From the NCBI GenBank assembly GCA_016212085.1, contig JACRHL010000013.1:1-51219 (forward strand): DNA of 51,219 nt. Reading direction: 5' to 3'. The stretch comes from Nitrospirota bacterium (GTDB taxonomy: Bacteria; Nitrospirota; JACRHL01). The translations under genes were made by a program, and so were the position numbers. Each line of letters begins with the position of its first letter. Position 1 is the first letter of the stretch. The notes under the pieces were generated by a model. The model was not told the DNA's origin, did not search any database, and was given only the letters and a program-made list of their open reading frames with translations. Positions 17,103 to 19,935 of the stretch are shown piece after piece.

Positions 17103-17816
17103 ATGACCGCCATCCCCCCCGCCGGGCGCATCATCTACGCCCTTGACGTGCCCGACCTGGCCGCCGCACGCGCGCAGGTGGCGTTGCTGGCCGGGCACGT
17201 GGGGGTGTTCAAGGTGGGGCTCGAGCTGTTCGTGAGGGAGGGGCCGGGCGTGGTGCGCATGGTGCACGACGCCGGCTGCGCGGTGTTCCTGGACCTGAAG
17301 CTGCACGACATCCCGGCCACCACCACCGCCGCCATCCGCTCCGCCGCCGCCCTGGGCACGCGCTTCTTGACCGTGCACGCCGAGGCGCTGGCGGGCATGC
17401 CCGTCAAGATGGGCGAGATCGCCCCCGGCCTGGCGGTGCTGGCGGTGACCGCCCTCACCAGCCTGGACCGGGCGGCGCTTTCCGCCATGGGCTACAAGGC
17501 GGCCCTGTGCGACCCGGCGCGGCTGGTGCTGAAGCGCGCGCGCATGGCCTTCGAGGCGGGCTGCGCCGGTGTGGTGTGCTCCGCCCACGAGGCGCGCCGG
17601 GTGCGCGCGGAGTATGGCCCCGGCTTCATCATCGTCACCCCCGGCATCCGTCCCGCCGACGTTTCGACGGACGACCAGGCGCGGGTGGCCACCCCCGCCC
17701 AGGCCGTGCTGGACGGCGCCGACTACCTGGTGATCGGCCGCCCCATCCGCAACGCGCCCGACCCGGTGGCGGCCGCCGCCGCCATCGCCGCCGGGATCGC
17801 CGCCGCCCTGGGTTAG
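17103..17816 (+). CDS. pyrF: Orotidine 5'-phosphate decarboxylase
   Basis: Last step of UMP synthesis, converting OMP to UMP. The 237-residue barrel shows the catalytic signature D64-x-K66-x-x-D69 in [13 protein letters not shown], the substrate residues D15 (ALDV) and K37 (FKVG), and the phosphate-binding end (VTPGIRP and YLVIGRPI). AGGAGGT at 17092-17098 is 4 bases from the ATG. Length and domain order are normal for bacterial PyrF. It is transcribed away from copA with a 102-base spacer. Confidence 0.97.
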
Positions 17817-17989
17817 CGGCCGCCACCTATCGGGCAGTTTTTTTCCCTGGATGGGGTGGGCGGGGTGTCTCCGCCACCCCCGCACCGGTGGTTTTCAGCG
17901 CGTAAAGTAATTTAATAACAACGAGTTGGATTCGTCATCCCGCGCCGGGTACGGTTGTTGCACAAAATCGGGTCAGATTGACGACCGTC
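17817..17989. other. Spacer between pyrF and the riboswitch
   Basis: A short AT-rich patch (17905-17945, including GTAAAGTAATTTAATAAC) stands out in the GC-rich surroundings and probably holds the promoter for the riboswitch transcript. A GC-rich hairpin (17852-17881) follows a T-run just past pyrF. No gene is seen. Confidence 0.45.
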
Positions 17990-18079
17990 GAGGTATGTCT
18001 GTCCAAGGGCAAACCGTCCGCGAGGGCGGGGCGCAAAGGCACCGGGTCTCCAGCGTGTGTGGGAGACGGCCGGCCTGCC
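17990..18079 (+). promoter_or_regulatory. Cyclic di-GMP-I (GEMM) riboswitch aptamer
   Basis: The sequence follows the GEMM-I plan. AGGGCAAACC (18006-18015) opens a first hairpin, CCGUCC paired with GGGCGG and capped by the GNRA tetraloop GCGA (18020-18023). Next comes the conserved GCGCAAAGG block. A second hairpin follows, made of CCGG + GUCUCC paired with GGAGAC + CCGG (18042-18073), with a two-base G asymmetry where the tetraloop receptor is expected. The aptamer closes with GGCCGGCCUGCC, comparable to the family 3' consensus AGCCGGGUUGCC. The block after GCAAAG departs from consensus (GGCACC rather than GCCAC). It is 29 bases ahead of a small gene. A covariance-model search was not possible here. 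Confidence 0.75.
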
Positions 18080-18107
18080 AGCAGCCTCCGTAACCGGAGC
18101 TGTTCCC
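18080..18107 (+). promoter_or_regulatory. Ribosome-site-sequestering hairpin (riboswitch expression platform)
   Basis: CAG + CTCCG (18082-18090) pairs with CGGAG + CTG (18095-18102) around the loop TAAC. The paired strand contains the GGAG ribosome site (18096-18099), which is 8 bases before the ATG at 18108. This would make the control translational. Whether c-di-GMP turns it on or off cannot be told from sequence. Confidence 0.6.
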
Positions 18108-18245
18108 ATGCGCGAGAGGCAATCCGCTTCCGTTCAATTCCTGGTGGGCGTGCTGACCAAGGCGCGCCTGATCCTCATCTTCATGGTGCTGGCCGTCATG
18201 TGGCTGATCTGGACGGACCGGTACACCCGCGGCCTGCTGGGGTAA
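18108..18245 (+). CDS. Riboswitch-controlled membrane microprotein 1 (45 aa)
   Basis: A 45-residue protein, MRERQSASVQFL..., with a short charged N-terminus, one strong membrane helix (about residues 19-35, LILIFMVLAVMWLIW) and a charged tail DRYTRGLLG. I do not recognise a family. Evidence that it is real is the GGAG ribosome site 8 bases upstream, the riboswitch directly in front, the clean hydrophobic profile and the 3-base gap to a second small membrane gene. The basic N-terminus suggests that end stays in the cytoplasm. An upstream GTG/ATG in frame at 18057 lies inside the aptamer and is not plausible. Confidence 0.72.
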   Translation: MRERQSASVQFLVGVLTKARLILIFMVLAVMWLIWTDRYTRGLLG

Positions 18246-18248
18246 CCC

Positions 18249-18389
18249 ATGCGCGGGGCCATCATGGTGTCGGCGTTCTGGGCGAGCTTTCTGGCGACCT
18301 CGGCCCTGGTGTTCGCCGGCACCTATCTGGCGCCGCCGTGGCTGCGCTGGGTGATGGGGCTGCCGGGGGTGATCGCCGCCACGTTCTGA
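18249..18389 (+). CDS. Riboswitch-controlled membrane microprotein 2 (46 aa)
   Basis: A 46-residue hydrophobic protein with a first membrane helix (about 6-27, [20 protein letters not shown]), a turn with PPWLRW and a second short hydrophobic stretch (GLPGVIAAT). No family is recognised. It starts 3 bases after the stop of microprotein 1, so translation is probably coupled; its own ribosome site is poor. ATG 18264 is an in-frame alternative. The pair may form a small membrane complex, which is inference. It ends 28 bases before the convergent terB-like gene. Confidence 0.62.
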
Positions 18390-19038: not shown

Positions 19039-19617
19039 ATGCCCCGAAAGCCGGCCGACCCGTTGGCCATCGTCAAGAAACGCCAGCTCCCCGGCGTGGT
19101 GGTGCTGGACCTGGCGCTCAACGTCCTGGCGGTCAACGGCCAGGCCGCCCAGCGCGTGATGCCGGACTGGATGGGGCAACACGGCGAGGTGATCGCCAAC
19201 CCCCTGCGCGGCGACGTGGTGCGCCTGGCCAGGCGGGTCATCGAGGAGAGCCTGGCGGACCCGCATGTGACCGACTGGGCCGCCGTGCACCTGGATGGCG
19301 ACAGCGTCTACGGCCTGAAGGCCGAGTTCATTTCCCCCCCCGGCTCCATGGGGGCCGACCGGCTGGTGCTGGTGCACGTGGACACGGTGAGCCTGAAGCG
19401 CGAGATCGACTTCGACGGCGTGCGCCGCCGCTGGGGCGTGAGCCGCCGCGAGCAGGACGTGCTGCGCCTGCTCTACTACGGCAAGAGCAACCGCGAGATC
19501 GCCGAACTGCTGTTCATCTCCGAATACACCGTCAAGGACCACATCAAGGCCATCATGGCCAAGATGTCCGCCGGCAACCGCGCCGAGATCGTCTACAAAC
19601 TCACCACCACGGCCTAG
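19039..19617 (+). CDS. LuxR-type transcriptional regulator with PAS-like N-terminus
   Basis: DNA-binding regulator of 192 residues. The C-terminal helix-turn-helix (about 134-188) is typical: [32 protein letters not shown] and an IMAKM recognition-helix end. The N-terminal 120 residues ([22 protein letters not shown]...) read like a small PAS-type sensor rather than a phospho-receiver, since no DD/D/K pocket is visible. ATG 19039 has GAGGCGGA upstream. It is divergent from the terB-like gene, so it may regulate it; targets are otherwise unknown. Downstream is a tandem-repeat spacer. Confidence 0.88.
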
Positions 19618-19923
19618 CCGGCCGGGCATAACCGGGCGGACCGCCGGCGGTGGCGGGGTGGGATCAGGCCACCGCGCGGCCGGCGCCCCTTGGGCGGGGG
19701 CGCGGGCGGCTCCAGAAAAAACCGGACCTGGCCGGCCGGGCATAACCGGGCGGATCGCCGGCGGTGGCGGGGTGGGATCAGGCCACCGCGCGGCCGGCGC
19801 CCCTTGGGTGGGGGCGCGGGCGGCTCCAGAAAAAACCGGACCTGGCCGGCCGGGCATAACCGGGCGGACCGCCGGCGGTGGCGGGGTGGGATCAGGCCAC
19901 CGCGCGGCCGGCGCCCCTTGGGT
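19618..19923. repeat. Tandem repeat, 114-bp unit, about 2.7 copies
   Basis: Units begin at 19618, 19732 and 19846 with CCGGCCGGGCATAACCGGGC and are nearly identical; only a few single-base changes are seen (for example GGACCGCC / GGATCGCC and TTGGGCGGG / TTGGGTGGG). The third breaks off after about 78 bases. The unit contains CCAGAAAAAACCGG and several GC-rich inverted stretches. Because 114 is 38 codons, all frames repeat in register, which gives misleading open frames on both strands. It lies between convergent luxR-type and der genes. Confidence 0.92.
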
Positions 19924-19935
19924 GGCGCGCACCTC

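Follow-up and report, generated by a model that had tools for sequence, protein, structure and literature searches.

A predicted c-di-GMP-I riboswitch with a putative sigma-54 promoter upstream of two candidate membrane microproteins in a family of Nitrospirota

The stretch of DNA analysed here, which we call the window, comprises 51,219 nt from a Nitrospirota bacterium. On its forward strand a c-di-GMP-I (GEMM-I) aptamer is predicted at positions 17998-18082, and two short open reading frames follow. The first (18108-18245, + strand) begins 25 nt 3′ of the aptamer and encodes a protein of 45 aa, microprotein 1, with one long hydrophobic helix. The second (18249-18389, + strand) encodes microprotein 2, a protein of 46 aa with an N-terminal hydrophobic helix, a PPWL motif and a weaker second helix. 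Only 3 bases separate the two frames, and a preliminary description of this DNA had given both lengths and this spacing correctly. A GGAG ribosome site for microprotein 1 (18096-18099, + strand) is present in the sequence and aligns in all three leaders available for comparison, those of the window and of two related genomes termed G002 and G003.

The order of genes around this putative operon is the same in the window and in G003: a transglutaminase-like gene, CopA, PyrF, the operon, a TerB-family gene, a LuxR-type gene, Der and LeuS. Neighbours were assigned to families by using Pfam, and in calling genes CopA, Der and LeuS we interpret those families. A 10-kb stretch of G002 carries the same neighbours minus PyrF. 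In the window and G003 the operon is immediately preceded by PyrF (17103-17816 in the window), whereas in G002 (L044) the operon's neighbour is CopA. Between the LuxR-type gene and Der, the window also holds a tandem repeat (19613-19925) in which a 114-bp unit is present in 2.7 head-to-tail copies with 97% matches.

In a covariance scan of the whole window, the aptamer was matched by Rfam model RF01051 on the + strand with 49.8 bits (cut-off 35, E 7.8e-7), and the alignment spans the first to the last model position. It is the only RF01051 match in the organism's own 2.70 Mb genome. The preliminary description had placed a GEMM-I leader at 17990-18079 and had proposed a search with the Rfam c-di-GMP-I covariance model, taking the lack of a significant hit as grounds for rejection; the match at 17998-18082 is significant and upholds the assignment. 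The motifs expected of this class are present, namely GGGCAAACC, a GCGA (GNRA) loop, GCAAAG and a closing strand. When the P2 and P3 pairs (8 and 10, respectively) were enforced, all 18 proved to be standard pairs, G-U included, in the window, G002 and G003 alike. The orthologous aptamer of G002 scores 49.9 bits with the same model.

Conserved residues of the class were also scored one by one. The twelve positions used (G20, C22, A23, A25, G32, A35, G42, C44, G45, A47, A48 and A49) lie in the 5′ half of the aptamer and are listed as conserved in the accessible portion of PMC3764141. All twelve are matched in the window at a single offset (17988, + strand) and at no offset on the - strand, and each of the two orthologues likewise matches 12/12 at a single offset. 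On the 3′ side, the closing GCC aligns with the conserved CC of the model, in a region where Vc2 numbering (C92, J3-1) cannot be fixed. The covariance model, the conserved residues and the orthologues together confirm, at the level of sequence, that the window leader carries a canonical c-di-GMP-I aptamer.

We considered how widely this arrangement is conserved. Microprotein 1 was sought in 61 genomes, consisting of the organism's own (G000) and 60 relatives, three of which belong to the same family, and was found only in G000, G002 and G003. Of the four family genomes, only these three carry RF01051 matches. A three-row profile of microprotein 1 gave full-length matches only in these three when 295 genomes of the phylum were searched; four partial matches (G224, G034, G039 and G234; E 2.3e-4 to 0.01; frames of 76-693 aa) were weak and were not counted as homologues. 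For microprotein 2, a search of 99 genomes gave hits in these three alone. A scan of genome contigs returned one locus, from Nitrospirota. In each of the three genomes the aptamer, microprotein 1 and microprotein 2 occur in this order on one strand. The fourth family genome, G001 (540 contigs), yielded no match to the aptamer, the microproteins, PyrF or TerB, and was set aside as uninformative because the contig that holds its Der gene breaks off within that gene, on the side towards the locus.

Conservation of the small frames in relatives, and recurrence of microprotein homologues behind GEMM motifs, had been named in the preliminary description as points to be checked. Both frames are kept behind the aptamer in 3/3 family genomes with an assembled locus, and G002 and G003 represent two further genera. 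Because the aptamer and both frames recur in these other genera, a chance origin is unlikely. Judged from gene order, the locus is a stable place in the core genome of three genera from one Nitrospirota family.

Both small frames look protein coding from the pattern of their sequence differences. Between G002 and G003, the microprotein 1 frames differ at 15, 5 and 19 of 45 first, second and third codon positions, respectively, and the microprotein 2 frames at 21, 10 and 23. In the pairs that include the window, which are more distant, second positions are less clearly spared (for example 27, 23 and 24 for microprotein 2 of the window and G002). BLOSUM62 scores summed over the three pairs reach 301 in frame for microprotein 1, compared with at most 215 in any other frame, and 258 compared with at most 99 for microprotein 2. 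The orthologues are 31 and 38% identical to the window protein in the case of microprotein 1, and 24 and 39% identical in the case of microprotein 2, whose start codon in G002 must be GTG. Three charged residues of microprotein 1 (K18, R20 and D37) are conserved in the orthologue alignment.

AlphaFold models were generated from three-row alignments. Microprotein 1 was modelled as one helix covering residues 3-44 (mean pLDDT 83.1), and microprotein 2 as two helices (2-26 and 30-45, the latter less certain) around the PPWL turn (mean pLDDT 78.8). Because the alignments had only three rows, we take these models to support no more than the view that both are helical, hydrophobic proteins.

The preliminary description had recognised neither protein, and this holds after searches of family collections. 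With the two window proteins, the best Pfam match was AtpR (E 0.066; 14.1 bits against a cut-off of 26). With all six proteins from the window, G002 and G003, neither NCBIfam nor PHROGs yielded a family, the single matches having E values of 0.18 and 0.17, respectively. Microprotein 1 had no match in plasmid records, microprotein 2 had none in phage records, and the microprotein 2 profile had none among solved structures. For microprotein 1 the structure search gave three designed repeat proteins (E down to 1.6e-11), which we take as a repeat artefact; 15 residues were aligned, and no stretch was significant alone. The microproteins are apparently undescribed membrane proteins. KdpF and CydX are small single-helix accessory subunits of membrane complexes, and the window proteins are like subunits of this type in size and in having one hydrophobic helix. 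However, the family searches revealed no sequence relation to them, and no partner complex is encoded beside the window pair.

A feature absent from the preliminary description, and new here, is a possible sigma-54 promoter upstream of the aptamer. Perfect TGGCAC-N5-TTGCT sites precede the aptamers of G002 and G003, and the distance from TTGC to the aptamer core is 52 nt in G002 and 50 nt in G003. At the corresponding position, 50 nt from the core, the window carries a degenerate -24/-12 site (GGGTAC-N5-TTGCA, 17947-17962, + strand) in which GG-N10-GC is kept. This site has two mismatches to TGGCAC-N5-TTGCW, and 17 such sites occur in the window where 25.66 would be expected by chance. The window site is therefore not significant alone and becomes credible only through its position, for which our own arithmetic gives a chance of about 0.002 with a tolerance of 7 nt. 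By similar arithmetic, a perfect site would fall by chance in a 60-nt stretch in about 1 of 10,000 cases per genome.

RpoN is present in 4/4 family genomes, which together hold 34 perfect sites, compared with 3 for the pattern read backwards. We fetched 30 of the 34 and picked ten downstream genes by hand for analysis with Pfam. These comprise two FliQ genes, one with a FliO match, one with a MotA/ExbB match, two whose products carry prepilin N-methylation motifs, one ECF sigma factor, one MoaA-like gene (radical SAM and molybdenum cofactor synthesis), one with Cache-domain matches below cut-off and one without a match. Because the genes were hand-picked, the proportion that serve motility should not be read as representative. 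The set nevertheless suggests that the operon may be under common sigma-54 control with motility and pilus genes, and the operon is probably transcribed by sigma-54 polymerase.

The means by which the aptamer might govern expression is less clear. The preliminary description had noted a short hairpin that buries the GGAG ribosome site. Such a hairpin (18082-18102, + strand) is indeed predicted by the unconstrained fold of the window and could serve as an expression platform, but only the window has it in strong form; it is not kept as a local hairpin in G002 or G003, and the complementarity of the ribosome binding site (RBS) to its leader is no better than that of shuffled sequences. The buried ribosome site is thus not supported as a switching element conserved among the three leaders. 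The best duplexes between RBS and leader were equalled by 122 (window), 109 (G002) and 367 (G003) of 500 shuffled RBS sequences. In G002, a 9-bp match of the aptamer strand GGGGCAAAC to the RBS spacer was rejected, 109/500 shuffles being as good, and this spacer pairing disappears from the free ensemble once the fold takes in more coding sequence. Free and constrained folds of the three leaders at six length settings gave no consistent or significant switch, and the 281-nt leader stretch has an unremarkable folding energy (z -0.42). When the aptamer and P1 were enforced, the Shine-Dalgarno (SD) sequence of the window was at most 0.17 unpaired in all six settings.

Within the window, the SD hairpin might have a competitor in a longer P1 (17990-17997 with 18082-18088), and a competition of this kind would make c-di-GMP an ON signal, but the SD stays mostly paired in the folds with aptamer and P1 enforced. 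Class I c-di-GMP riboswitches of both the ON and the OFF type are described in the available text of PMC6366702. Control of ribosome binding is in our judgement the likeliest reading of the switch. As to its direction, we lean slightly towards ON because in all three leaders the sequence that pairs best with the RBS lies at least partly in the aptamer or on the P1 side, a pairing that is not itself significant.

Taken together, these observations are consistent with the following mechanism. RNA polymerase carrying sigma-54 would start the transcript near position 17973, as estimated from the promoter, leaving about 25 nt upstream of the aptamer. The leader would then fold into a canonical c-di-GMP-I aptamer, and ligand binding would reshape the RNA beside the first ribosome site and so set the translation of both microproteins. 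The microproteins would be made when the state of the sigma-54 activator and that of c-di-GMP agree. Least certain is the final step, in which the two proteins would most likely cooperate in the inner membrane, either as small regulators or as accessory subunits of a complex that serves motility or surface functions.

We regard a c-di-GMP-responsive two-gene operon that works through this full mechanism, for which the genomes examined offer only three orthologous loci, as reasonably likely. A stronger version holds that this is a two-input operon, requiring both a sigma-54 activator and the riboswitch, whose sole products are a microprotein pair that directly tunes a motility or surface machine, so far in one Nitrospirota family; we offer this version more tentatively and would not count on it. 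At the protein level, no link between the microproteins and motility was found. The preliminary description had proposed a new effector output for the second messenger. The pair may be such an output, and its proteins match no family searched, but sigma-54 control shared with flagellar and prepilin genes would fit the usual theme of motility and surface functions.

Several other explanations for the leader deserve to be weighed against c-di-GMP-dependent control of ribosome binding. The riboswitch might act on transcription elongation, through Rho, or on RNA stability, and the three leaders do indeed share no conserved structure that sequesters the RBS. Yet with only 25 nt between aptamer and frame in the window, a Rho site would have little space unless the coding region serves instead, and no intrinsic terminator-like site was found on the + strand; control at this level seems to us unlikely, although it is the most plausible of the alternatives. 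A different doubt concerns the ligand, as the aptamer could sense another cyclic dinucleotide, either cGAMP or the molecule bound by the c-di-GMP-I-GGC variant, in which case the operon would answer another signal. The model of that variant (RF03167, a clan sister of RF01051) scores 53.1 bits in the window when 601 bases around the aptamer are scanned permissively, above the 49.8 bits of RF01051 but short of the variant's cut-off (59), and in G003 it passes the cut-off with 59.5 bits. The overall score is thus similar for the two models, but the variant has the consensus GCGAAG where the window has GCAAAG, and the window and its two orthologues all have A at the equivalent of A47. Aptamers for cGAMP (GEMM-Ib) carry A at position 20, and the equivalent residue is G in all three leaders. 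Because the equivalents of G20 and A47 are G and A, c-di-GMP is the expected ligand, and we consider a different one improbable. Hardly credible is the proposal that the leader is a free-standing, sponge-like RNA that binds c-di-GMP and that the frames behind it are spurious. It has a precedent in merRNA of Bdellovibrio, a riboswitch RNA without a conserved downstream frame that is proposed as a c-di-GMP reservoir in the part of PMC3627812 available, but both frames in the window are conserved at the protein level in three genera and bear a coding signature.

The products themselves might be a toxin-like pair that depolarizes or damages the membrane when c-di-GMP permits. Their size and hydrophobicity would suit such a role, and c-di-GMP-I riboswitches of Clostridioides difficile precede antitoxin RNAs of small membrane toxins, according to the accessible text of PMC7699646. 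At the type I toxin-antitoxin loci cdi1_4 and cdi1_5 described there, a c-di-GMP-I riboswitch lies beside a small membrane protein, as it does here; by that same partial text, however, the riboswitch of C. difficile heads the antitoxin RNA and the loci reside in prophages, whereas in the window it heads the two frames themselves at a core-genome locus. Occupation of one core-genome locus in three genera, conservation of K18, R20 and D37, the lack of any PHROGs match, and the lack of matches to microprotein 1 in plasmids and to microprotein 2 in phages all argue against toxins, and we judge this reading to be quite unlikely. Any function of the pair beyond that of membrane microproteins under c-di-GMP control is one that we infer.

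The targets of c-di-GMP-I riboswitches usually hint at function through recognizable genes. The window leader resembles other RF01051 riboswitches, such as Vc1 and Vc2 of Vibrio cholerae, in its aptamer core, GNRA loop and conserved residues, in its 5′ leader position and in belonging to a host with GGDEF proteins, but differs from them in its downstream microproteins, which match no family searched, and in its putative upstream sigma-54 promoter. The riboswitch belongs to a known class, and what would be new is the target pair and the arrangement of a sigma-54 promoter with a riboswitch. GGDEF matches occur in 4/4 family genomes, with 15 in the organism's own genome, whose single c-di-GMP-I switch points only at two membrane microproteins. 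The recurrence of the arrangement in three genera makes it look like a real signalling output. If the proposal is true, the pair would be an effector arm of c-di-GMP signalling made up of microproteins dedicated to it. For this lineage the pair is the most direct handle on RNA-level action of c-di-GMP, and it allows the idea that microproteins act as second-messenger effectors to be tested. A literature search, covering titles and the beginnings of abstracts among the matches listed and few subscription journals, returned no c-di-GMP riboswitch that controls microproteins and none in Nitrospirota.

To place the locus among others of its phylum, we surveyed 91 RF01051 matches above cut-off in 31 Nitrospirota genomes and listed the frames downstream. 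The microprotein pair lies behind three of the 91 aptamers, all in this family, and for four of the 91 the contig ends within 300 nt. Other downstream genes, classified by eye, presumably encode secreted or lipoprotein-like, cytochrome-like, PilM-like, flagellar rod-like and CBS-domain-like proteins, among more. A small (≤70 aa), hydrophobic frame preceded by an SD sequence occurs within 250 nt of 4/91 aptamers, namely the three family members and one on contig C144 of G008. The last was rejected as a further microprotein, since it looks like a truncated copy: 30 of its first 32 residues match the start of a 352-aa lipoprotein-like frame of G017. This lipoprotein-like frame lies behind an aptamer at full length (352 aa) in G017 (L059) and G025 (L024), and stops after 41 aa in G008 (L074).

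A relaxed sigma-54 site is present within 150 nt upstream of 14 of the 90 surveyed aptamers that have enough upstream sequence, and of none when the same stretches are read backwards. The 14 include G002 and G003 and exclude the degenerate site of the window, and some of the others are related loci and not independent. By this count, sigma-54 promoters may be paired with c-di-GMP riboswitches across the phylum. The survey also revealed aptamers in close succession. At one locus (L058; G057:C53, 17498-18167), three c-di-GMP-I aptamers are arranged in series on one strand with a spacing of about 290-300 nt, and two further close pairs occur at G016:C76 (226660-226915) and, more spread, on G018:C31.
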